A DNA stretch of 64,000 bases, from the NCBI RefSeq assembly GCF_001428435.1, contig NZ_LMSO01000009.1, positions 518,389 to 582,388 of the forward strand, given 5' to 3'. Positions 17,784-33,725 of the stretch are shown piece after piece. The position numbers and the translations under genes are program-made. Under the pieces are notes generated by a model. It was not told the origin of the DNA. It did no database searches and was given only the letters and a program-made list of their open reading frames with translations. How positions within the stretch are numbered: the first letter of the stretch is position 1; each line of letters starts with the position of its first letter. The stretch is from Arthrobacter sp. Soil782 (GTDB taxonomy: Bacteria > Actinomycetota > Actinomycetes > Actinomycetales > Micrococcaceae).

Positions 17784-18506
17784 ATGGCGCGTGCTTCGCT
17801 GGCTGAGTCGGTCTTCGAAGAGATCCTTGAGCGCATCATCAACGGCACTTATCCGCCCGGCGAGTTCCTTCCGTCTGAGGGCGAACTGGCCGCCTCAACG
17901 GATGTAAGCCGATTGACGGTGCGCGAGGCATTGAAGAAGCTTCAGGCCCAGAATGTGGTTCAGGTGCGGCGCGGACTCGGCACGTATGTGAACCCGAGCG
18001 CCCAATGGACGGACCTGCAGGCCATCCTGCGCTCCGCAACCGCGGCGTCCGCTTCTCCTGACGTCTCACTTCGGCTCCTGGAGATTCGGCGCATGGTGGA
18101 AATCGGGGCTGCCGAACTGGCTGCCCTGCACGCCACCAAAGAAGACCTGACCCGTATGGAGACGGCAAACGCTGCACTGCGGGTTGCGCATCAGGCAGGC
18201 AACCTCGATGCCGTGACCACCGCCGACCTTGCCTTTCATGAAGCAGTTTTCCGGGCATCGGCGAACCCCTTCATTCCGGTGATTCTTGGACCCCTCGGCA
18301 AGCTGCTGTACAGCATGCGGCGGGAGACGTCGTCGTTCCTTGAAGTTCAGAAGCATGCGCTTGAGCACCATGCGCTGGTGCTTGACGCAATCCGGACCGG
18401 TGATGCCGAGGTGGCCGGAAAAGCGATGCAGGCGCACATCAACCAGACCTATGACGACTACGAGCACTTCATCCATCACAACGATCAGCATCAGGAGCAA
18501 AGGTGA
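17784..18506 (+). CDS. GntR family (FadR subfamily) regulator
   Basis: A 240-residue protein: winged HTH at residues 1-70 (FLPSEGELAASTDVSRLTVR) and FCD domain from about 85 to 225, with the metal/ligand residues in DLAFHEAVFRAS and LEHHALVLDAI. FCD GntR proteins respond to sugar acids such as gluconate. It is divergent from the GntP-type symporter and its stop overlaps the SDR start by four bases (GTGA), so it probably controls both. ATG at 17784 is chosen because the homologous region begins there. Confidence 0.9.
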   Translation: MARASLAESVFEEILERIINGTYPPGEFLPSEGELAASTDVSRLTVREALKKLQAQNVVQVRRGLGTYVNPSAQWTDLQAILRSATAASASPDVSLRLLEIRRMVEIGAAELAALHATKEDLTRMETANAALRVAHQAGNLDAVTTADLAFHEAVFRASANPFIPVILGPLGKLLYSMRRETSSFLEVQKHALEHHALVLDAIRTGDAEVAGKAMQAHINQTYDDYEHFIHHNDQHQEQR

Positions 18507-19279
18507 CCGAATCAGCAGAATTCCCCTCAAGCCGTACAGCGGTACTCACAGGGGCGGCCTCCGCACGTGGAATCGGTCGGGCGACAGCCAATCGGTTGGC
18601 CGGCGAGGGCTGGAACATCGGAATTCTCGACATCGACGGCGCCGCTGCCGAAGAGGCAGCAGCGGATATCGCTCAGCGGCACGGCGTTCAAGCAATCGGT
18701 GTTGCTACTGACGTGTCCGATGAGGCTTCGGTGGATGTTGCCATCGGCCGGATCGAAGCCGAGTTGCCGCCTATTGTGGCGCTGGCGAACCTAGCGGGGA
18801 TCAGCTCCCCCACCGAGTTCATGCAGGAGACCAGGGAAGCCTGGGAGCGGGTTTTCGCGGTCAACATGACGGGAACCTTCCTCGTGACGCAGCGGGTGCT
18901 GCACGGGATGATCGAGCGGAAGCTCGGGCGTGTGGTAAGCATTTCGTCGATCTCCGCCCAGCGTGGTGGGGGTACCTATTCCAAGGTGGCCTACAGCGCG
19001 TCAAAGGCCGGCATCATTGGATTCACGCGTGCGCTCGCACGGGAGATGGGCGAGCACGGCATCACGGTCAACAGCATTGCGCCGGGTCCGGTTGACACCG
19101 ACATCATGGGCGGAACCCTCACGGAGGAGCGCAAGCGGGACATGTCGAAGGACATCCTGGTTGGTCGCGTGGGCACCGTCGACGAGATGGCTGCGCTCAT
19201 CTCGTTTTTGGTGGGTCCTGATGCCGGGTTCATTACCGCCGCTACCTACGACATCAACGGCGGCCTGCAGGTTTCGTGA
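18503..19279 (+). CDS. Short-chain dehydrogenase/reductase
   Basis: A 258-residue classical SDR: coenzyme-binding TGAASARGIGRA (about 16-27), LANLAG (the NNAG position), catalytic Ser in SISSISAQR and the YSASK motif with Tyr/Lys, then APGPVDTDI. An acidic residue at the end of strand 2 (DIDG) suggests NAD rather than NADP. Start is a GTG overlapping the GntR stop. With GntR and GntP it probably oxidises or reduces a sugar acid (a gluconate 5-dehydrogenase-like step); the precise substrate cannot be read from sequence. A long inverted repeat follows 60 bp downstream. Confidence 0.85.
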   Translation: MTESAEFPSSRTAVLTGAASARGIGRATANRLAGEGWNIGILDIDGAAAEEAAADIAQRHGVQAIGVATDVSDEASVDVAIGRIEAELPPIVALANLAGISSPTEFMQETREAWERVFAVNMTGTFLVTQRVLHGMIERKLGRVVSISSISAQRGGGTYSKVAYSASKAGIIGFTRALAREMGEHGITVNSIAPGPVDTDIMGGTLTEERKRDMSKDILVGRVGTVDEMAALISFLVGPDAGFITAATYDINGGLQVS

Positions 19280-22340: not shown

Positions 22341-22392
22341 ATGGCCACTATAGGTTCGCTCGTAGCCAGAGCCGCCACCAACGTGAGTGAAT

Positions 22393-22405
22393 ATTGTTGA
22401 ACAAT
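22393..22405. promoter_or_regulatory. GntR operator of the pxp operon
   Basis: ATTGTTGAACAAT is a 6-1-6 dyad, perfect apart from its central base. The same sequence occurs twice in front of the Nramp-like/DUF1445 operon at 31762-31798. Presumed target of the GntR protein encoded at the end of the pxp operon. Confidence 0.7.
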
Positions 22406-22455
22406 CTGTGAATCTCGTGCATGCTGGGGGGACCACAAACGAGACGAGGATCACT

Positions 22456-23214
22456 ATGGCTTTCATCGACCTCAACAGCGACGTCGGCGAGTCCTTCGGC
22501 AACTGGACCATGGGCAACGACGCCGCCATCTTCCGCTCCGTCTCCAGCGCCAACGTTGCGTGCGGCTTCCACGCCGGTGACCCGTCCACCATCGCCCAGA
22601 CGTGCCGCGACGCAGTTGCCGCCGGCGTCACCATCGGCGCCCACGTCGGTTACCGGGACCTGGCCGGCTTCGGACGGCGCTTTCTCGACTGCTCCCCCAC
22701 AGAACTGGCCGACGACGTCCTGTACCAAATCGGCGCCCTCGACGCGATTACCCGCGCAGCCGGCGGCACCATCCGCTACGTCAAGCCACACGGCGCCCTC
22801 TACAACACGATCGTCACCCACGAGGTCCAGGCCAAGGCAGTAGTCGACGCCGTCAAGGCCTTCGGCGGCGACCTCCCTATGCTGCTCCTCCCGGGCTCGG
22901 TCGCGCTCAAGACGGCAGAAGCCGCCGGACTCCGCGGAGTCTCCGAAGCCTTCGCCGACCGCGCCTACAACCCGGACGGCACCCTGGTCTCCCGCCGTGA
23001 ACCCGACGCCGTCCTCCACGATGAAGACACCGTCGCCGCCAACATGGTCCGCCTCGCCACCGAAGGAACCATCATTGCCCGTGACGGCTCCACTATCAGG
23101 ACAACCGCCGAAAGCATCTGCCTCCACGGCGATACCGACGGCGCGGTGGCCATGTCCGCCGCCGTCCGCCGCGAACTCGAGGCTGCCGGCGTCAGCATCC
23201 GGAGCTTCGTGTGA
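22456..23214 (+). CDS. pxpA: 5-oxoprolinase subunit PxpA (LamB/YcsF family)
   Basis: A 252-residue LamB/YcsF protein: [18 protein letters not shown] at the start, [11 protein letters not shown] (about residues 34-44), [16 protein letters not shown] and [10 protein letters not shown] are all family signatures of this TIM-barrel hydrolase-like fold. PxpA works with PxpB and PxpC to open 5-oxoproline (pyroglutamate) to glutamate with ATP. First gene of an operon with overlapping joints: its TGA overlaps the GTG of the fused pxpB-pxpC. A GntR box lies 50 bp upstream of the ATG. Confidence 0.93.
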
Positions 23215-24830
23215 GCGCTGGGATTCCGCAGAGCAGCATGCTGACGGAAATTCACTGGGCCGGGCCGCGCGCCCTGCTCATCGAACTCGAATCGCTCGAC
23301 GCGGTCCTGGCCCTTCATGCGCAACTGGTCGACCATCCGCTGCCTGGCCAGGTTGATGTCCTCGCTGCAGCCCGCACCGTGCTCGCTGTGTTCGACTCGA
23401 GCGGGAACGCCCGCGCTGCCAGCACCGCAGTCGCTGCGCTGGACGTCGCCCAGTCAAAGGACGCGCTTACCTCCGCCGATCCAGTCCGGGTCGAGGTGGT
23501 GTACGACGGCGACGACCTCGCCGAAGTAGGCCGCCTCACCGGCCTGGGTGCTGACGGCGTCATCGAAGCCCACACCGGACAACTCTGGACGGCGGCCTTC
23601 GGCGGCTTCGCTCCCGGTTTCGCCTACCTCGTCGGCGAGAACGAGACCCTCAACGTCCCACGCCGCACCAGCCCCCGCACCGCCGTACCTGCAGGATCGG
23701 TGGCCCTGGCCGGCAACTTCTCCGCCGTCTACCCGCGCCGCTCCCCCGGCGGCTGGCAACTGATCGGCCGCACCTCCACCCGCATGTGGGACCTCGACCG
23801 CGAGCAGCCCGCCCTCCTGCGCCCCGGCACCACAGTCCAGTACGTAGCGGTGCGTGAGGCGATCGAGCTTGCGGACACCCAGGGAACAAACGACGACGAC
23901 GACGCCACCCGCCCTGCCGCTGTCGGCCCCGCCCTCGAGGTACTCAACCCCGGCCCGCAGTCGCTGATCCAGGACCTCGGCCGGCCCGGACTCGGTGATC
24001 TCGGGGTCTCGGCGTCCGGCGCTGCCGATACCGCGAGCGCACGCCAGGCCAACCGTCTGGTCGGCAACGAGCCCGGGGACGCCGTCGTCGAAAGTGTCGT
24101 CGGCGGACTGGCGGTTCGCGCTCATGGGGAACTGACGCTCGCCCTCGCCGGTGCACCGGTGCCCGCCCGCATCGACGGACAGCACAGCGAGCGGACCGCT
24201 CCGCTGTATGCGCCCTTCGCGCTGCATGACGGCGAGAGCCTGCACCTCGAGGTGCCCGAGGCGGGATTGCGAACCTACCTCGGCGTCCGCGGCGGCATCG
24301 ACGTCGAACCGGTACTCGGCAGCCGCTCGACTGACCTGATGTCCGGAATCGGCCCGGCGATCCTCAAACAGGGAACAGTGTTGCCGGTTGGCGACGTCGA
24401 GCACGGGCGGACAGTCGGTACGGCCGAAACCTCAACTCTCCCGCAAGACATCCTCGAGCGCCGGGAAACGGTCACGCTGCGCATCACCACCGGCCCCCGC
24501 CAGGACTGGTTCACACCGGAATCGCAGGCCGCCCTCACAGAGCACCCCTGGACAGTCACCGCGGAATCCAACCGGATCGGCGTCCGCCTTGGGGTGACCA
24601 GCGGCCAGCCGCTCGAACGCGCACGCACCGAGGAGCTCCCCAGCGAAGGTGTGGTGGCAGGCTCACTGCAGGTGCCGCCGTCGGGCCTTCCCGTCCTTTT
24701 CCTCGCCGACCATCCGGTCACCGGCGGCTATCCGGTGATCGGCGTCGTCGTACCCGCTGACCTGCCCGCCGCCGCCCAACTGCCGCCGGGCACCACCGTG
24801 CGTTTCATCGAAATGGAGCCTAAGCCATGA
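23211..24830 (+). CDS. Fused 5-oxoprolinase subunits PxpB-PxpC (KipI-KipA type)
   Basis: A 539-residue protein that joins two subunits usually encoded separately. Residues ~10-220 form the carboxyltransferase C/D domain (PxpB/Kip[43 protein letters not shown]) and ~235-530 the A/B domain (PxpC/Kip[49 protein letters not shown]). An acidic linker with a DDDD run joins them. Start is GTG 23211 (GTGA overlap with pxpA); an ATG at 23238 is the alternative. The next gene overlaps it by ATGA. Together with PxpA it should form the ATP-dependent 5-oxoprolinase. Confidence 0.92.
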
Positions 24831-26566
24831 AGAAGGTCCTGATCGCCAACCGCGGCGAGATTGCCGTCCGGATTGCCCGCGCGTGTGCCGATGCGGAGCT
24901 GAATTCCGTTGCGGTGTACGCCGATCCCGACGCCGATGCACTGCACGTCCGCCTCAGTGACGAGGCCTATGCGCTCGGCGGTTCGGCCAGCGCGGACACC
25001 TACCTGAACATCCCCAAGCTCCTGGACGTTGCAGCCCGCGCCGGCGCCGACGCCGTTCACCCCGGCTACGGTTTCCTCTCCGAGAACGCCGACTTTGCGC
25101 AGGCAGTGCTCGACGCCGGACTGACGTGGATTGGCCCCTCACCGGACGCTATCCGCAGTCTGGGAAACAAGGTCACCGCCCGCGAGATCGCTGTGAAGGC
25201 GGGCGCACCGCTCGTTCCCGGCTCGGACGGCCCGGTTGCCAATGCCGACGAGGTCCGTGCTTTCGCCGAGCAGCACGGCGTGCCGGTAGCGATCAAGGCG
25301 GCATTCGGCGGCGGCGGCCGCGGGCTCAAAATCGCCCACCGGCTCGAAGACATCGACGACGCCTTCGACTCCGCCGTCCGGGAGGCCACAGTGGCGTTCG
25401 GCCGCGGTGAGTGCTTCGTCGAGCGGTTCCTCGACAAGCCCCGCCACGTCGAGGCGCAGGTGCTGGCGGATACGCACGGGAACGTCGTCGTTGTCGGCAC
25501 CCGCGATTGTTCGCTGCAGCGGCGCAACCAGAAGCTTGTGGAGGAAGCACCCGCGCCGTTCCTCACCGATGACCAGCGCAGCCGCATTCACGAATCCGCC
25601 CGCGCCATCTGCCGCGAAGCCGGGTACACCGGTGCAGGAACAGTCGAGTACCTGGTGGCGCCAGACGGCGTGATCTCCTTCCTCGAGGTCAATACCCGCC
25701 TACAGGTGGAGCACCCGGTGACCGAGGAGACATCCGGGATCGACCTCGTGCGTGAGCAGTTCCGCATCGCCGCCGGCCTGCCCGTGTCCATCACCGAGGA
25801 CCCCGTACCGCACGGCCACGCCATCGAATTTCGGCTCAACGCCGAAGACGCCGGCCGCGGGTTCCTGCCCTCCCCCGGGCCGGTCGACGTCTTCGAGGCG
25901 CCGACCGGTGCCGGCATCCGTGTGGATACCGGTGTCCGCTCCGGCTCCAGCGTGCCCGCGGAATACGACTCCCTCATGGCCAAGCTGATCGTCCACGGCG
26001 CGGACCGTGCACAGGCGCTGCGGCGTGCCCGAACCGCCCTGGATGAGCTGCGGATCGAGGGGGTGCCCACCGTCGTCCCGTTCCATCGTGCAGTGGTACG
26101 CGACCCCGATTTCACGCAGCCCGACCGCCTCGGCGTGTACACAACCTGGATCGAGTCTGAGTTCTCCGAACGGCTCGCCGCCTCGCTCACCAGCGGGATC
26201 ACTGGCCCCGTTGCCCGCCGGGAGACGCTCACGGTGGAGCTCGACGGTAAGGCCGTTCAACTAGGTCTGCCGGCACAGGTGTTCGCTGCGCTGATGAGCG
26301 GCGAAAGCACCGCCGTCGCGCCTGGTTCCCGTGTGGAGGAGAAGACAGCGGACGACGGCGCCATCACTGCCCCGATGGGCGGAAACCTCGTGAAATGGCT
26401 GGCCGACGATGGCGCCGAGGTGAGCGCGGACCAGGCCGTCGTGGTGGTTGAGGCAATGAAGATGGAGACCGTGGTCTCTGCATTGTCCGCCGGCACTTTC
26501 CGGCGCGGCGCGCAGGAGCCGGGTGCCGCCGTCGTACGTGGTGAGGTGTTGGGTACGGTTGAGTAG
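24827..26566 (+). CDS. Biotin carboxylase-BCCP fusion of the 5-oxoprolinase operon
   Basis: A 579-residue protein: biotin carboxylase N-domain ([19 protein letters not shown]), ATP-grasp ([14 protein letters not shown]), the [15 protein letters not shown] catalytic segment, C-domain to about 450, and a C-terminal biotinyl domain with EAMKMET (542-548, biotinyl Lys545). It charges biotin with bicarbonate using ATP. Its overlap with pxpBC (ATGA) rather than with a beta-carboxylase makes a role beside the KipI/KipA-like subunits likely, in the manner of urea or 5-oxoproline carboxylation. It could also be a generic acyl-CoA carboxylase alpha chain recruited to this operon. Confidence 0.9.
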
Positions 26567-26568
26567 CC

Positions 26569-27249
26569 ATGAATACTGCAACGGATACGACAACCGCAGC
26601 TGAGCACGCCCATACGACGGCGTGGATTGCTTCGGTGCTGCGCGCACGGATTGCGGCAGGGCAGCTGACGCCGGGGTCGAAGTTGTCGGAGCAGTCGTTG
26701 TCGGAGTCGCTGGGGGTTTCGCGGAATACGTTGCGGCAGGCGTTCGCAACACTCGCGGGCGAATCGATCGTGACGCGCATCCCGAACCGGGGCGTTTTCG
26801 TGGCAGCGCCCGGTGTGGAGGAAGTACGCGAGATTTATCGGGTGCGGCGGACGATCGAACCGGCGGCAGTGCTGTGGGGCCGGCCCACTCCCGCACAGCT
26901 GGATGCGATGGACGCCATCATCCGGAAGGCCCGGGCGGCACGCGATGCCGGCTCCGTTCCCGAGATGGCCAACGCGAACCAGGCGTTCCACGAGGCCGTT
27001 GTCAGCCTGACCGGCAGCGAACTGCTGCGGGAACTGATGGACAAGGTACTGGCGGAGATGCGGCTGGTGTTCCATGCCATGTCCGCGGCCCCCGATTTTC
27101 ACACGCACTACGTGGACCGCAATGCGGCGGTCGTTGAGCAGTTGCGCAGGGGCGAGAACGAGCGTGCAGCCGCTGACCTGCGGGCCTACCTCGACGCCGC
27201 CGAGTCCGAGCTGCTGGGGCACCTCGAGGGCGAGGCCCCTAACCGGTGA
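26569..27249 (+). CDS. GntR family (FadR subfamily) regulator of the pxp regulon
   Basis: A 226-residue FCD-type GntR protein: HTH at about residues 15-80 (LSEQSLSESLGVSRNTLRQA), FCD domain with ANQAFHEAVVSLTGS and the final helices. It begins two bases after the carboxylase stop, so it is the last gene of the pxp operon. The operon promoter and the distant Nramp-like/DUF1445 promoter share a TTGTTnAACAA palindrome of the size usual for this subfamily, which I assign to this protein by proximity. 5-Oxoproline or glutamate would be a logical ligand. Its end overlaps the universal stress gene tail to tail by 11 bp. Confidence 0.9.
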   Translation: MNTATDTTTAAEHAHTTAWIASVLRARIAAGQLTPGSKLSEQSLSESLGVSRNTLRQAFATLAGESIVTRIPNRGVFVAAPGVEEVREIYRVRRTIEPAAVLWGRPTPAQLDAMDAIIRKARAARDAGSVPEMANANQAFHEAVVSLTGSELLRELMDKVLAEMRLVFHAMSAAPDFHTHYVDRNAAVVEQLRRGENERAAADLRAYLDAAESELLGHLEGEAPNR

Positions 27250-28111
27250 TCACCATAACGGGGCACTGCGGATCCAGCAGAAGCTTGTGAGTGACGGACC
27301 CCAACTGGATTCCGGACCTCGCCCCACGGCCGTGCCGCCCGATGACAAGCAGGGAGGCGCCTGAGGCGCGGTACTTCAGCGCTTCGTCTGGAGCACGCTC
27401 CAGATCGGTCAACCGGGAGATCCGCACCTCCGGGTAACTGGCGCGCAGGGCGTCGAGCATGCCCGCGAGTTCCTGAGAAGCAGCATCACCGGTTGGACCG
27501 TCGTCGGCGGTTTCCGTGCCTTTCGATGAAGTGACGACCGTCAGCGCGTGGCCGGAACGGTCTGCTTCAACGACGGCCACGCGAAGCGCTGCATGGGACT
27601 CGGGCGAGCCATCCACGCCCACAACTATTCCCCCGCTGCCGCCGTCAAGAGCCTGCGCATCATGGGGAAGGACCACGACGGGACAGGCACTTCCCAGCGC
27701 GACCTGATGGCCGACCGATCCCAGGTACTCCCCGGTGCGTCGGTCTACCCGGTCAGCCCCTACGACCACCAGTGCCGCGTTCTCCGCGATGCCCAGCAAG
27801 GCGTCGACGATTTCACCGCAGTGAACGGTTGAGGCAAACCGAACATCCGGGTACTCCAGCTCCGCGCGTGCTTCCTCGTCATCCATCAACTGCCGCGCCG
27901 CGTCCACCAGGCTGCGGTAGGGTGTCCCTCCCGCAGCCACCGGCAGGACGAGTGACGGGTCAGGAATCGCATGCACCAGGGTGACGGATTGACCGGTGCG
28001 CCGGGCGCGCTCGGCTGACCACCGTAGAATAGCCGGCCCCCTTTCCCCGTCCCGGAATGCGACGACGATGCGGCGCGACGGAGAGTGAGCGGATCCCACA
28101 GCACTACTCAC
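27239..28111 (-). CDS. Universal stress protein, tandem UspA domains
   Basis: A 290-residue protein made of two Usp domains (about 12-148 and 158-290). The second has the ATP-binding signature GRHGRGARSGIQLGSVTHKL with G-x2-G-x9-G-S/T; the first has the looser GADRVDRRTGEYLGSVGHQV. Tandem UspA proteins are common in actinobacteria under hypoxia or stationary-phase control. Start is GTG 28111, overlapping the stop of the alcohol dehydrogenase gene (GTGA), so the two are cotranscribed; the pairing suggests a stress or low-oxygen redox unit. Confidence 0.9.
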   Translation of the reverse strand: MSSAVGSAHSPSRRIVVAFRDGERGPAILRWSAERARRTGQSVTLVHAIPDPSLVLPVAAGGTPYRSLVDAARQLMDDEEARAELEYPDVRFASTVHCGEIVDALLGIAENAALVVVGADRVDRRTGEYLGSVGHQVALGSACPVVVLPHDAQALDGGSGGIVVGVDGSPESHAALRVAVVEADRSGHALTVVTSSKGTETADDGPTGDAASQELAGMLDALRASYPEVRISRLTDLERAPDEALKYRASGASLLVIGRHGRGARSGIQLGSVTHKLLLDPQCPVMVITG

Positions 28112-29163
28112 CGTCCGGGTTCCTGCTGTTCGGGCACGATGACTGCGCGGCCGCGGACAGCGCCGGCCCGCAGCCGTTCATACGCGACGGGCGCATCGGA
28201 AAGGCTGAAAGTCTCAATCTCAACAGAGATCCTTCCTGCCCGCGCCAGCTGCACCACTTCCATCAGTTCGGACCGCGATCCCCAGTAGGGAGCCCGTGCA
28301 GCGGCATCCCACGGCGTGGAAAAGAATCCGACATCCACCGTTCCGACGCCGACGCCCACAATTGCAATTTCACCGCCGACACTCACCACGTGTGATGCAA
28401 AGGCCGTTGTCGCCGGTGCTCCCACAAAGTCGAATACCGCCGTTGCGCCCCGGCCGCCGGTCAGAGCCCGGATCTGCCTCTCCGCATCCTCACCCGGCAC
28501 AAAGGCGTGGTCAGCGCCGACTTCGAGGGCGAGATCCAGCTTCGGCTCTGACTGGTCAAGGGCGATGATGGTGCTCGCCGTCAGCGTGCGCAAAATCTGG
28601 ATGGCTACATGGCCCAGTCCGCCGACACCGATGACCACTGCGGCCGACCCGGGGACCAGGGTCGGCAGGGACTGCTTGATGGCGTGGTACGGGGTCAATC
28701 CTGCGTCGGTCAGGGACACACTGGCAACAGGGTCCAGGTCTCCCAGCGGCACCAGATGACGAGGATCGTCAATAAGCAGATACTCCGCCATCGCCCCCGG
28801 CGCACCCAGACCGGGAGGCCTGATTTCGAGCTCTGCCGCTACCTCGCAATAGTTCTCCTTGCCCTGCGCGCAGGTGTAGCAGCGTCCGCAGCCCCACGGT
28901 CCGTAGACCAGCATCGGCTCGCCGACGGTAAGGCCCTTCACCCCGTCGCCCCAGGATTCAACGACGCCGGCTCCCTCGTGACCCAGGGTAAGCGGAAGCC
29001 CATAGATGTACTGATCCTCCGGCAGGTCCATGATGAACTGGTCCGAATGGCACACGCCCGCGGCCGTGACGCGCAGAAGCACCTGCCCCGGCCCGGGCAC
29101 CGGAGTCTCGACCTCGACAACCTCCGGCGCGGCACCCACAGCACGGTACTGGAGCGCCCTCAC
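28108..29163 (-). CDS. Zinc-dependent alcohol dehydrogenase
   Basis: A 351-residue MDR-family enzyme. GVCHSDQFIM and GHEGAGVV carry the catalytic zinc ligands Cys and His-Glu, GPWGCGRCYTCAQGKENYC supplies the four structural zinc cysteines, and VIGVGGLGHVAIQ is the NAD-binding motif with an acidic residue (ALDQSE) after strand 2, favouring NAD. The start is taken as GTG 29163 with GGAGGAG 6 bp upstream; the frame is open for another 200 codons upstream but without family resemblance. It probably oxidises primary alcohols or reduces aldehydes; overlap with the Usp gene suggests joint control. Confidence 0.9.
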   Translation of the reverse strand: MRALQYRAVGAAPEVVEVETPVPGPGQVLLRVTAAGVCHSDQFIMDLPEDQYIYGLPLTLGHEGAGVVESWGDGVKGLTVGEPMLVYGPWGCGRCYTCAQGKENYCEVAAELEIRPPGLGAPGAMAEYLLIDDPRHLVPLGDLDPVASVSLTDAGLTPYHAIKQSLPTLVPGSAAVVIGVGGLGHVAIQILRTLTASTIIALDQSEPKLDLALEVGADHAFVPGEDAERQIRALTGGRGATAVFDFVGAPATTAFASHVVSVGGEIAIVGVGVGTVDVGFFSTPWDAAARAPYWGSRSELMEVVQLARAGRISVEIETFSLSDAPVAYERLRAGAVRGRAVIVPEQQEPGR

Positions 29164-29362
29164 GAGTACTCCTCCACAAGCCGGCGTGGGTCGGGATCTC
29201 CCATGACATACCTCCTGGGTCAGCGCGTCGATTGCAGCGGTTGACCCCAGTGTGCCCTCTCCGGGAGCCCCGCGGTAGAGCCCTATGCCCGTTCCATAAA
29301 ATAGGGTGACCAATGGATCGCTACACAGCGACGAATGAACCAAGACCGGGCGGTGACCTGTG

Positions 29363-29587
29363 ATGAAGACAATAAAGGCCAAAAAGTGGAGCGACCTGAC
29401 GCCCGCGCAGCAACGAGCGGTTCTGACCGCTGCGTCGGTGCAGTTGTCGCTAGCGGCTACCGCGTGGGTTGACCTGGCCAGGCGGCCCGAGAGCCAGGTC
29501 AACGGACGCAAGAGCCTGTGGGCGGTAGGGATCGGCCTTAACTTTCTGGGACCGATCCTGTACTTCAGCCGGGGAATCCGCCGCTGA
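29363..29587 (+). CDS. Small PLDc_N-like membrane protein
   Basis: A 74-residue protein (75 if the adjacent GTG at 29360 is used). It has two hydrophobic segments and the pattern WVDLARRPESQVNGRKSLW followed by a G-L-N-F-L-G-P-I-L-Y-F helix, close to the N-terminal membrane domain seen in phospholipase D-like cardiolipin synthases (PLDc_N) but standing alone. Such short proteins are widespread and uncharacterised. It ends 15 bp before a strong inverted repeat. Confidence 0.7.
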   Translation: MKTIKAKKWSDLTPAQQRAVLTAASVQLSLAATAWVDLARRPESQVNGRKSLWAVGIGLNFLGPILYFSRGIRR

Positions 29588-29602
29588 AGTACACCACCCG
29601 CT

Positions 29603-29668
29603 GGAACTTTTGCGCAGATCCGGTGGGTTCGGCGGGGTCGGAAGCCGCCGGATCTGCGCAAAAGTTCC
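29603..29668. repeat. Dispersed inverted repeat, copy 1
   Basis: Two perfect 21-base arms (29603-29623 and 29648-29668; the left begins GGAACTTTTGCGCAGATC) around a 24-base GC-rich loop. Related copies lie at 44101-44180 and 45440-45515. Here it separates two convergent genes and could act as a bidirectional terminator. Confidence 0.85.
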
Positions 29669-29681
29669 CTGAAATCGGGGC

Positions 29682-30482
29682 TTACGGCACCAGGTAGTCG
29701 CTGTCCCTCGCGTCGGTGATGAGCATATGGCCGGGTGCGTGGCCGATCGCGAGCGGCGGCCGCGACTGCATCACCGCCGCCTGCGGAGTGACGCCGCACG
29801 CCCAGAACACCGGCAGGTGTCCGTCGGGGATCTGGACAGCCTCACCGAAGTCGGGGGCGCCAAGGTCAGCAATGCCAAGCTCCTCCGGATTGCCCACGTG
29901 CACCGGCGCGCCATGGACGGCCGGATAGCGCGAGGTGATGCGCACGGCGTCGGCTACCTGTGCAGCGGGAACCGGGCGCATGGAGACCACCAGCGGACCG
30001 GACATGGCGCCGGCGGGAGCGCATTGCCGGTTGGTCCGGTACATCGGCACGTTGACGCCCTGGTCGATGTGCGCAATCCGGACGCCGCCGTCCTGCAGTG
30101 CAGCCTCGAAAGTGAAGGAACAGCCAATCAGGAACGTCACGAGGTCCTCACGCCAGTAACGCCCGATGTCGGTGGGCTCGTCCACCTTCTCGCCGTCCCT
30201 ATACACCGTGTACTTCGGGACGTCGGTGCGGATGTCCCCGCCCGCCAGCAGCGGCCCGGCTGTCTGGCCCGGCTCCAGTACGCCGAGCACAGGGCAGGAT
30301 TTCGGGTTGCGCTGGGCAAAGAGGAGCAGGTCGAAGGCCTGCTCACGCGGGATGGCGAGCACGTTGGCCTGGGCGTACCCGCGGGACCAGCCCGACGTCG
30401 GCACCACCAGTCCGCTGCGGAAGGCCTCCCGCGCTTCGGCCGGCGTGGCCCCAGCGCGGTCTTCGGCACTCCAGCTGATCAT
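29682..30482 (-). CDS. DUF1445 putative hydro-lyase / D-glutamate cyclase-like protein
   Basis: A 266-residue DUF1445 protein. [32 protein letters not shown] and [20 protein letters not shown] (about 150-170), then [13 protein letters not shown] and ITHAPG-like [12 protein letters not shown] at the end are family signatures. Bacterial members are annotated as putative hydro-lyases; the vertebrate protein DGLUCY, which contains this domain, converts D-glutamate to 5-oxo-D-proline. ATG 30482 overlaps the transporter stop (ATGA). Because this operon shares operator boxes with the 5-oxoprolinase operon, I infer a D-glutamate/5-oxoproline role here. Confidence 0.85.
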
Positions 30483-31699
30483 GCGGACCACAGCTGCGCG
30501 AGCCCCATGATCGAGGTCCAGCCGAGGAAGAGGGTGAGCAGCCAGGTCACCACACCGACGATCAGCAGCCACTTGGGATAGTTGTAGCCGTTCATCAGGT
30601 CACGCCGGCGCCAGGCCACCCAGAGGAGCACGCCGAAGCCGACAGGCAGGATCAGTCCGTTGAACGCACCCGCGAAAATCAGCAGCTGCTGCGGTGCCTG
30701 GCCGAGGAAGAGATAAACCGTGGCGCAGACCACGATGAAGGCAACGGTGATGAGGTTTCGCTTGCGCTCGGGGGTCTTCGAGGAGGTGATGAAGGAGACC
30801 GAGGTGAAGGATGCACCGATCACAGAGGTGATGGCCGCGGCCCAGAGGACGATGCCGAACACCCGCATTCCGATCTCACCGGCGGCCGCACCAAAAGCTT
30901 CAGCCGCCATGTTATTACTGCTGAGGACGGTACCGCCGGCAACCACACCGAGGATCGCCAGGAACAGCAGAACCCGCATGACGCCGGTGACGATAATGCC
31001 GATCACCGAGCTGCGGGTGATCTGCTGGACGTGTTCAATTCCGGTGGCGCCGGAGTCGAGCATGCGGTGTGCGCCGGCGTAGGTGATGTAGCCGCCGACG
31101 GTGCCGCCGACCAGCGTGGTGATGATGAGGAAGTCGACCTCCTCGGGCAGGAACGTATTTTTCAGCGCGTCACCCAGCGGTGGAGCCGCGACGATGGCTA
31201 CGTAAATCATCAGCAGGATCATGATGGCGCCGAGAAGAACCACTATGCGGTCCAGTGCCAGGCCCGCGCGCTTGCTGACGAAGATCAGAATGGCGATGAC
31301 AGCGGAAATTGCGCCGCCAATCTTCGGGTCAACGCCGAGCATCGCGTTGGCGCCAAGGCCGGTTCCCGCGATGTTGCCGATATTGAAGACCACACCGCCG
31401 AGGAAGACCAGGCCCGCAAGAAACCAGCCGACGCCGGGAACCACCCGGTTGCCAAGCTCCTGCGCCCTCAGCCCGGAGACTCCGATGACCCGCCAGACGT
31501 TCATCTGCACTGCGATGTCGATGAGGATCGACGCCAGGATGGCGAAGGCGAACGCCGCGCCGAGCTGCGCGGTGAAGACGGTTGTCTGAGTGATGAAGCC
31601 GGGGCCGATGGCGCTGGTCGCCATCAGGAACATCGCGCCCAGCAGGGCTGAGCGCCGAGCTGAGGAGCTCAGATTGAGTTTGGTGCTGCCTTCTGCCAT
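30479..31699 (-). CDS. Nramp-like transporter lacking the metal motif
   Basis: A 406-residue membrane protein with about 11 hydrophobic segments, of the Nramp/APC-fold group (GPGFITQ at residues 32-38 is the entry of the first helix). The metal-coordinating DPGN of true Nramp transporters is missing: the stretch following GPGF reads TVFTAQ. So manganese or iron transport is unlikely and an organic substrate is plausible. The protein is translationally coupled to a DUF1445 gene, and its promoter has two GntR boxes like that of the pxp operon; 5-oxoproline or D-glutamate uptake is my best guess. ATG 31699 is chosen from the homologous start. Confidence 0.82.
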
Positions 31700-31761
31700 G
31701 GGGTCCGTCCGTAACGTCGGGGTGACTAGCGTCACAATTATCGTCCCGAGGAACGATACAG

Positions 31762-31774
31762 GTTGTTGAACAAT
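31762..31774. promoter_or_regulatory. GntR operator of Nramp-like operon, box 1
   Basis: GTTGTTGAACAAT, identical to the pxpA box except for the first base; 63 bp upstream of the transporter start. Confidence 0.7.
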
Positions 31775-31785
31775 ATTGGCAAGAG

Positions 31786-31798
31786 ATTGTTCAACAAC
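31786..31798. promoter_or_regulatory. GntR operator of Nramp-like operon, box 2
   Basis: ATTGTTCAACAAC, the same dyad with the other central base, 24 bp (center to center) from box 1. A further half site ATTGTTG follows at 31806-31812. Confidence 0.7.
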
Positions 31799-31838
31799 TT
31801 CGTTTATTGTTGCAGGCCCAGACTGGCTGACCGGCGGC

Positions 31839-33725
31839 TCACCCGTCGAACTGCAGCAGTGAATCGGCGGTCCGCCCACTCATCCCCACGAGCATGGTGC
31901 GGTTGCGGGCACCGGTCTTGCGAAGGATGGAACCCACGTGTTTCTCCACTGTCTTCACGGAAATCTGAAGTTCACGCGCAATCTGCTTGTCCGCCATCCC
32001 GCGGATCACCATCGCGCAGACCTCCCGCTCGCGGGTGGTGAGGTTATCCGTCTCCTTCTCCTCAGAGGAATCGAGAAGCCGGTCGAAAACGTCCCCTTCC
32101 AGCAACGCTTGCCCCTGCCCGGCCGCCACGATGGTCCGGGCAATGGACTCGCCGCCGGCACGGCGGTTGATGAACCCGCGCACGCCCACCTGCTTCGCCG
32201 AGCGCACCTGGTCGACGGTCGGATTGTCGGTCAACACCACGACGACGGCGTCAGGGCCCAGTTCCCTCATCCTGCCGACCAGCGCGGTATGTGCATGCAC
32301 CATGTCCAGATCCATCAGCACCACGTCGGGATGGAGCAACTCATACGCTTCCAGCAATTGGTCCGCTGAGTGGACCTCCGCTCCAACCTGGATGGCGGGC
32401 TCGGCGATGCCGAGCAGCCTCACCAGACCGGCACTGACCACGGGGGCGTCGTGGGCAATCAGGATCCGCCATCGCGGCTCCTGCACTGCCCGGCGGTCCG
32501 GGGCGGCGTGCGGCAGGACGGCCTTGACCGTTGTCCCCCACCCCGGAACGCTGTCAATCTGCAGGGTTCCGCCGAGATGGATGGCCCGCGATGTCATGCC
32601 GTGCAGGCCGAGGCAACTGGTGGGCAGCGTCGAGTGGTCACCGTGCGCTGTTGCGGGGTCGAATCCCCGCCCGTTGTCTTCAATCACTACGGCCAGGGAA
32701 CCGCCGTCGTGAATCAGCCCGACGCGCACGTTCACAGCGCGCGAGTGGAGGACCACATTGTTGAGGGCCTCCTGCACGATCTTGAACGCCTGATGCTCAA
32801 CCTCGGGGGCAAGCGGCAGCTGGTCCCCGATGATGGTCAAGCGGGTGGCTGCCCCGGACATCGCTTCCGCCCACACCAGTTCCCCGCGGATGGCCTCCGC
32901 CAGGGATTTACCAGCCAACGACGCCGGTCCAAGCCCCAGTGCCGTCCGGCGCGTTTCAGCCAGCGCATCGTGGGCGACGGTTTTCGCCGTGCTGATATGG
33001 GCCGAGGCCTTCCGCGTATCAGGGCCTGCGCCCTCGCTGACCCCGGCCAGGGCCTTGTCCGCATCATCAAGACTGAGCAGCAGCGCTGCGAGTGACCGGC
33101 CGAGGGTTTCATGTACGTCCCGGACCGCGCGTTCACGTTCGGCTGCCACAGCGGCCTCGCGTTCCCGGGCAGCCGCCTGAGCATGGAGATCATAGTTCCC
33201 GAGGGCAATGGCGGCGTGACCCGCGAACAGTTCCGCCAGGCGGGCCTCATCCCGGGTGAAGGTGCGGCTGCTGTCGGGGCTGAAAAGGATGAACGCGCCG
33301 ACGATCCGCTCATCCCACTGCAGCGGAACACCGATCACCGCGCAGTTCCATCGTGGATCGTTGGCAGCAATGTGGCCGCGCTCGATCTCCGAATAGGCAT
33401 CCAGGACAACCGTGGAGCGGCTCCCCACAACCCGGCCCGTAAGGCCCTCCGCAAGCGAGAAGGTCTGGCCTTCCTGACAGCCGACGCCGATATCCACTTT
33501 CTTGGTGTACGTACCTTTTGCCTCGTCGACGAGCGCGATCGAGCCGGACTCGCAGTGGAGAAGGGAGGTGGCGTGGATAAGGATCCGCTGGAGAAGCGCC
33601 TGGATTTCGAACCGTCCGGCGAGATCCCTCGCGATCCCGATCATGGGATCAAGTTCCTCCGGGAAACCGGTCATCCGGCGCACGCCGCTGGGCAGGGAAA
33701 CAGAACTTTGTGCAACTGCGTCCAT
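31839..33725 (-). CDS. Single-chain GAF sensor kinase-receiver-LuxR regulator
   Basis: A 628-residue protein joining both halves of a NarL-type two-component system: GAF domain (about 25-175), HisKA_3 with His205 in VRDVHETLG, HATPase (EALNNVVLHS at 319-328 and EDNGRGFD at 349-356), receiver domain (about 420-540) and LuxR HTH (about 560-620, LTTREREVCAMVIRGMADK). The receiver keeps the phospho-acceptor Asp472 (LMDLD) but has His425-Asp426 in place of the usual acidic pair and Arg521 where the conserved Lys is expected, so phosphorylation chemistry may be altered. It sits upstream of the GntR-controlled Nramp-like operon without clear coupling. Target genes unknown. Confidence 0.88.
   Translation of the reverse strand: MDAVAQSSVSLPSGVRRMTGFPEELDPMIGIARDLAGRFEIQALLQRILIHATSLLHCESGSIALVDEAKGTYTKKVDIGVGCQEGQTFSLAEGLTGRVVGSRSTVVLDAYSEIERGHIAANDPRWNCAVIGVPLQWDERIVGAFILFSPDSSRTFTRDEARLAELFAGHAAIALGNYDLHAQAAAREREAAVAAERERAVRDVHETLGRSLAALLLSLDDADKALAGVSEGAGPDTRKASAHISTAKTVAHDALAETRRTALGLGPASLAGKSLAEAIRGELVWAEAMSGAATRLTIIGDQLPLAPEVEHQAFKIVQEALNNVVLHSRAVNVRVGLIHDGGSLAVVIEDNGRGFDPATAHGDHSTLPTSCLGLHGMTSRAIHLGGTLQIDSVPGWGTTVKAVLPHAAPDRRAVQEPRWRILIAHDAPVVSAGLVRLLGIAEPAIQVGAEVHSADQLLEAYELLHPDVVLMDLDMVHAHTALVGRMRELGPDAVVVVLTDNPTVDQVRSAKQVGVRGFINRRAGGESIARTIVAAGQGQALLEGDVFDRLLDSSEEKETDNLTTREREVCAMVIRGMADKQIARELQISVKTVEKHVGSILRKTGARNRTMLVGMSGRTADSLLQFDG

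Follow-up and report, generated by a model that had tools for sequence, protein, structure and literature searches.

The window analysed here, a stretch of 64,000 nucleotides from Arthrobacter sp. Soil782 (contig NZ_LMSO01000009.1, positions 518,389–582,388 of the forward strand), contained three copies of a short dyad in front of two convergent operons, the 5-oxoprolinase (pxp) operon and an operon composed of an Nramp-like transporter gene (pxpT) and a DUF1445 gene. With high confidence, these dyads are the operators of a GntR repressor of the PxpR type; its gene, at 26569–27249, is part of the pxp operon, and it would release both operons in response to 5-oxoproline, an amino-acid by-product, whose uptake and breakdown would thereby be switched on. 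The assignment was based on the sites themselves, their rarity in the genome, their conservation and co-occurrence with the GntR gene in related genomes, and their near-identity to the published PxpR site.

The dyad ATTGTTGAACAAT was located before pxpA at positions 22393–22405, and two further copies, GTTGTTGAACAAT with one mismatch (31762–31774) and ATTGTTCAACAAC (31786–31798), were located before the Nramp-like gene, exactly where a reading made from the sequence alone had placed them. When the dyad was extended to 17 bp, the operators, to which no strand was assigned, spanned 22391–22407 (O1), 31760–31776 (O2) and 31784–31800 (O3), and the middle base was G or C in 68 of the 68 exact sites counted. 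The centre of O1 was 57 bp 5' of the start codon of pxpA, and the centres of O2 and O3 were separated by 24 bp. At up to two mismatches, the window gave eight matches (both strands counted), compared with a mean of 0.31 and a largest value of 2 in shuffled sequences. In the whole genome (3,422,365 bases, 99.68% complete), the three occurrences of TTGTTNAACAA were all those listed above, and there was none of the backwards control. The genome-wide scan, set beforehand as a possible refutation by frequency, found a rare motif. The 13-bp core at up to two mismatches was unspecific, with 21 genome places against 5 for the control, so that only the strict form was informative. Two other places, matched by the published 17-bp PxpR site at up to three mismatches, were rejected as further regulon members: C1:440419 was within an upstream coding region, showed synonymous variation and was kept in two of six relatives, and C1:741362 was inside overlapping open reading frames (ORFs). 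The Rfam scan of the window at gathering scores gave no match, by which a known RNA element was rejected.

The same type of site has been described in Corynebacterium glutamicum, which grows on 5-oxoproline through pxpTABC and in which the GntR-type PxpR is the repressor of these genes, according to the parts of the article available to this analysis (PMC13274462, Appl Environ Microbiol, May 2026). There the PxpR site is agattgttcaacaatct, as proposed by RegPrecise; a reporter rose 6.5-fold when the site was changed or deleted, PxpR bound 5-oxoproline with a dissociation constant (KD) of 726 nM, and growth on 5-oxoproline required PxpT (PMC13274462). At up to three mismatches, this 17-bp site matched five places in the window's genome and the control none; the best three matches, with 1, 2 and 2 mismatches, were the places of O1–O3. 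Repression, 5-oxoproline binding and the need for the site, shown in C. glutamicum, are predicted for the window.

Conservation was examined in 97 genomes, the window's included, and the site was sought within 250 bp 5' of each gene. Some match to the window's GntR was found in 95 of the 97, and its presence was therefore graded by E-value. For pxpA, a match was found in 83 genomes, and 79 of these (all but G070, G073, G080 and G087) gave the 80 rows counted, using the best copy per genome except for G046, which gave two rows, and excluding second copies near 40% identity. With a GntR at E <= 1e-50, 25 of 27 rows had the exact site before pxpA, compared with 2 of 53 rows without such a GntR; at E <= 1e-30, the counts were 27/36 and 0/44. 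Within the window's genus alone, the site was present in 18 of 19 rows with the GntR and 0 of 18 without. Genome G003 served as a natural control: its pxpA was 88% identical to that of the window, and a close regulator, PxpT and the site were all absent.

The Nramp-like gene showed the same pattern. A match was found in 36 of the 97 genomes, some of them weak, and 30 loci were counted; G022, G010 (partial), G041 and weak matches were not included. The exact site was present before the gene in 26 of these 30 loci, that is, in 26 of 27 with a GntR at E <= 1e-30 and in none of three without. Of the four loci without the site, those of G050, G073 and G088 had no close GntR. In a narrower count confined to loci around the GntR gene, the site was present in 25 of 25. 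The second dyad, centred 24 bp away, was present in 18 of the 26 loci (in G026 with one mismatch). The conservation before orthologous operons on which the sequence-only reading had staked itself was thus observed on both sides where a GntR homologue was present, and its proposal of a single regulon, in which one GntR operator links the pxp operon to the Nramp-like/DUF1445 operon, was supported by rarity, conservation and the published PxpR site.

Beyond the relatives, the 15-mer GATTGTTCAACAATC was found in 12 of 394 class-level genomes (control in 1), and in 11 of the 12 it adjoined pxpA, the Nramp-like gene or a GntR gene. In five of them the gene order was that of C. glutamicum, the GntR and Nramp-like genes being divergent. 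The exact 17-mer was found in 94 stretches of the named genome collection, of which 80 were fetched and counted; by estimate, about 30 matches would arise by chance in a collection this large. Of the 80, 26 contained pxpA or the Nramp-like gene, and 5 more only a weaker GntR match. By record titles, the 26 pxp-linked stretches were 24 from actinobacteria (Arthrobacter, Glutamicibacter, Paeniglutamicibacter, Pseudarthrobacter, Rothia, Cryobacterium and Corynebacterium) and two from Pseudomonas. Extra sites in G034, G017, G041 and G006 had no pxp homologue alongside. In four stretches titled Corynebacterium (L201, L206, L236 and L274), the exact 17-bp site was near a gene without pxp homology; these sites may belong to another regulator or reflect a different use of the dyad.

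The pxp operon ends with gntR (26569–27249, plus strand), which encodes a protein with GntR and FCD domains, that is, a GntR-type protein with an N-terminal helix-turn-helix and a C-terminal ligand domain encoded together with pxp genes, as in PxpR. All 53 aligned rows, which were picked by similarity to the window's GntR, had the sequence SRN[TS][LV]R in the region of the recognition helix. The nearest solved structure was 2hs5 (E 4e-33), a GntR-family protein to which its title assigns no function. In bridging class-level genomes with divergent pxpR and pxpT, the GntR proteins encoded beside the site were 39–49% identical to that of the window. Comparison points to the GntR encoded in the operon as the correct candidate, since GntR genes related to it are found next to the site in other families within the class and the same site was tested in C. 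glutamicum; this protein would bind O1–O3. At 17784–19279, a second FadR-type GntR gene was followed by a short-chain dehydrogenase-like ORF, named from its translation.

The operators coincided with probable promoter elements. For pxpA, a putative -35 box (TTGAAC, 22397–22402, plus strand) inside O1 was assigned from its spacing and its conservation across an alignment of 16 upstream regions, and a putative -10 box (CATGCT, 22420–22425, plus strand), 17 bp after it, by eye from the same alignment. For pxpT, the consensus scan gave one promoter-like site, against a shuffle mean of 0.1. Its -35-like box (TTGCCA, 31777–31782, minus strand) was between O2 and O3, with O3 just 5' of it, and O2 filled the 18-nucleotide spacer to the -10-like box (TATCGT, 31753–31758, minus strand). 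This placement, with O1 over the -35 of pxpA, O2 in the spacer of pxpT and O3 next to its -35, fits a repressor. The immediate upstream neighbour of pxpT is a histidine-kinase/LuxR hybrid gene (31839–33725) of the same orientation, and read-through past the operators is therefore possible.

In the proposed mechanism, a PxpR dimer would occupy each dyad without 5-oxoproline (pyroglutamate) and block the promoter, covering the -35 region of pxpA at O1 and flanking the -35 of pxpT at O2 and O3. When 5-oxoproline rises, through spontaneous cyclisation of glutamine or glutamate or through uptake, it would bind to PxpR and both operons would be released together. The first would then supply the 5-oxoprolinase (PxpA and PxpBC), the biotin carboxylase–carrier protein and PxpR, which would limit its own synthesis; autoregulation is probable because gntR closes the pxp operon. 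The second would supply the Nramp-like importer PxpT and the D-glutamate-cyclase-family protein.

Several observations weighed against this reading. Of the 97 relatives, 51 contained the 11-mer, in many cases without neighbouring pxp genes, and the control was likewise found in many. Nine of the 36 pxpA rows with a GntR at E <= 1e-30 were without the exact site. In three of these (G038, G071 and G081), the site instead preceded an Nramp-like gene heading the same gene run, in G056 it headed DUF969-DUF979-DUF2891-pxpA-pxpBC-gntR, and in G026 and one copy of G046 the pxpA site had one mismatch. No pxpA site was found in G048, in G096, where pxpA and the GntR gene were on different contigs, or in the second G046 copy. 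Genome G048 also had a GntR (E 1.4e-44) and no site at PxpT. Related genomes are not independent samples, and the proposed orthology of the window's GntR to cg1143 PxpR rests on the bridging genomes. In addition, the consensus scan at pxpA found no promoter, and the predicted -10 in C. glutamicum is upstream of the operator, unlike in the window (PMC13274462, as far as its excerpts show).

The dyads could instead serve another GntR/FadR-type protein, such as that of 17784–18506, with the pxp gntR having other targets. Eleven GntR-type matches were found in the genome, and the four Corynebacterium stretches suggest that it may also be used by other regulators the dyad as a binding site. This explanation is nevertheless very unlikely: the presence of the site tracks the presence of the pxp GntR homologue, C. 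glutamicum PxpR acts through the same site (PMC13274462), and the 17784–18506 protein has a different helix, SRLTVR. The protein at the sites could also be an activator that requires 5-oxoproline, and the position of O3, just 5' of the pxpT -35, is one used by activators as well. The occupied pxpT spacer, the position of O1 over the putative pxpA -35, and the role of PxpR as a repressor in C. glutamicum (PMC13274462) make an activator highly improbable. The PxpR-type repressor remained the preferred reading.

The Nramp-like gene (30479–31699, minus strand), a PxpT homologue, matched PF01566 with 88.9 bits, and its NCBIfam metal-transporter score of 31.4 was below the cut-off of 50. The DPGN and MPH sequences are the metal-site motifs of Nramp divalent-metal transporters. 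When the protein was aligned with E. coli MntH by MAFFT, DPGN was opposite GPGF and MPH opposite GGY; in BLASTP, the D was likewise opposite G, with a gap at N. Neither motif was thus present in the window's protein. Across 38 Nramp-like rows (a few genomes twice), GPGF and GGYIT were present in 38 and DPGN or MPH in 0. The profile comparison with MntH by hhalign was weak, with a probability of 1.9%, and the search of solved structures with the protein alone or as a 21-sequence profile gave no sequence match. Missing the metal-ligand motifs of MntH favours 5-oxoproline over metal uptake, and the protein is more likely a 5-oxoproline transporter than a metal transporter, as judged from its sequence. 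The place of the transporter in the regulon, as the sequence-only reading had proposed, was retained, and its function was refined from Nramp-like to probable 5-oxoproline import rather than metal import.

The second operon could instead be a manganese-uptake operon under the same control, with the Nramp-like protein as a metal importer, a role that has been argued for YcsG of Bacillus subtilis (PMC10448178, in the portion available). The Pfam match and the status of the gene as the sole Nramp match in the window's genome leave some room for metal uptake. As the main role it was rejected on the missing motifs and the score below the curated cut-off, and this alternative appears unlikely, also in view of the requirement for PxpT during growth on 5-oxoproline (PMC13274462) and of the genes found under the operator where PxpT is missing. 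DUF979 was found in four of the 97 genomes (G055, G047, G056 and G096), all without a PxpT homologue (for G096, at 73% completeness). In each of them the operator preceded a DUF969 and DUF979 run (L096, L097, L102/L318 and L108), and a GntR gene was found no more than a few kilobases away. DUF2891 was first or later in the run at two of these loci, and in G096 a pyroglutamyl peptidase gene followed it. A Campylobacter mutant in the DUF969-DUF979 genes no longer used 5-oxoproline in a preliminary growth experiment (PMC12795558, in part). Replacement of PxpT by a non-homologous proposed 5-oxoproline transporter under the same operator is evidence in the dispute between manganese and 5-oxoproline.

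Other transporter genes were also located behind the dyad. In G043 it preceded an MFS transporter gene (L312, 4821–6275), and in G055 an MFS gene followed by a DUF1445 gene (L314, 4920–7104). In G048 it preceded ABC-ATPase, CbiQ and BioY genes of an ECF-type transporter with DUF2891 (L315, 1492–4664), in the genome that has no site at its own pxpA and PxpT. A tentative proposal, which we hold with low confidence, is that the operator marks an exchangeable 5-oxoproline import slot (PxpT, DUF969-DUF979, perhaps MFS or ECF-BioY), and that, with the biotin carboxylase and D-glutamate-cyclase-family enzyme added in the window's group, the 5-oxoprolinase might act through biotin-dependent carboxylation of the lactam and the D form of glutamate or 5-oxoproline might be handled as well.

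The plus-strand operon was composed of pxpA, pxpBC, the biotin carboxylase gene and gntR, whose ends overlap or nearly touch (23211/23214, 24827/24830 and 26566/26569). PxpA (22456–23214), a LamB/YcsF protein, matched PF03746 with 330.5 bits and the NCBIfam PxpA model with 360.9 bits against a cut-off of 226. The pxpBC gene (23211–24830, plus strand) encodes fused carboxyltransferase-type 5-oxoprolinase subunits (PF02682, PF02626; TIGR00724 over its cut-off), and the separate PxpB and PxpC models were below their cut-offs because of this fusion. The LamB/YcsF protein and the two carboxyltransferase-type subunits of PxpABC were therefore all present. On the minus strand, the start of the DUF1445 gene overlaps the stop of pxpT (30479–30482). 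Usp and zinc dehydrogenase genes (27239–29199) separate the convergent operons, and none of the mapped relatives showed this pair there; in many of them gntR ends near DUF1445 or pxpT, but the gap is 3.8 kb in G009 and 2.2 kb in G057.

The biotin carboxylase gene (24827–26566, plus strand) encodes a fusion of biotin carboxylase with a biotin carrier domain (PF00289, PF02786, PF02785 and PF00364), and its translation contains the biotinylation-type motif EAMKM. By hand count, it was present in 23 of 26 mapped pxp operons under the exact site, the exceptions being G019, G025 and G031 (G055 was not mapped). As PxpBC consists of carboxyltransferase-type domains, its reaction may be biotin-dependent; the introduction of PMC13274462 favours phosphorylation of 5-oxoproline. 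In open-licence PubMed Central, nothing useful was found on a link between biotin carboxylase and pxp. The DUF1445 gene (29682–30482, minus strand), named D-glutamate cyclase by Pfam (PF07286, 221.8 bits) and "putative hydro-lyase" by NCBIfam (NF003969, 403.4 bits against a cut-off of 324), would carry the cyclase name, which stands for turning D-glutamate into 5-oxo-D-proline, as a family match only; a D-glutamate cyclase with tested activity is a mouse protein, which has DUF4392 in addition (PMC5339696, as excerpted). Both enzymes may act in the 5-oxoproline system. Through the regulon, the biotin carboxylase and the DUF1445 family are linked to the sensing of 5-oxoproline, which makes their roles testable, and the operator is sharp enough for genes to be assigned from sequence.

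In the open-licence PubMed Central literature, no description was found of the two-operon form with twin operators, of an operator link to biotin carboxylase and DUF1445, or of transporter exchange under a PxpR operator. KipR belongs to the IclR family. The B. subtilis kip/pxp operon likewise combines pxpABC, ycsG (Nramp-like) and ycsI in one operon, but is controlled by KipR, TnrA, CcpA, AhrC and MntR (PMC10448178). The DUF969-DUF979(-DUF2891) genes of Campylobacter jejuni (PMC12795558) and others (PMC11467057, both in part) share the proposed 5-oxoproline transport, whereas they encode a membrane protein family unrelated to PxpT, with no match in the window's genome.

When the window was compared with C. 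glutamicum, as far as the excerpts of PMC13274462 describe it, the GntR-type regulator and its targets, 5-oxoprolinase genes and an Nramp-like transporter, were the same; the 17-bp operator differs from those of the window by 1, 2 and 2 bases, and its centre is 65 bp before pxpT compared with 69 bp for O2. The genes of C. glutamicum form one operon with pxpR divergent (PMC13274462), whereas those of the window form two convergent operons with gntR inside one of them. The fused pxpB/pxpC, the paired operators at pxpT and the extra biotin carboxylase and DUF1445 genes were found in the window only, and autoregulation, judged unlikely for PxpR in C. glutamicum (PMC13274462), is probable for the window's gntR. 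The mechanism is already published for another genus and the window is a rearranged version of this known system, by which PxpR, described in 2026 in Corynebacterium, is extended to the window's family (Arthrobacter and its kin) and to two Pseudomonas genomes.

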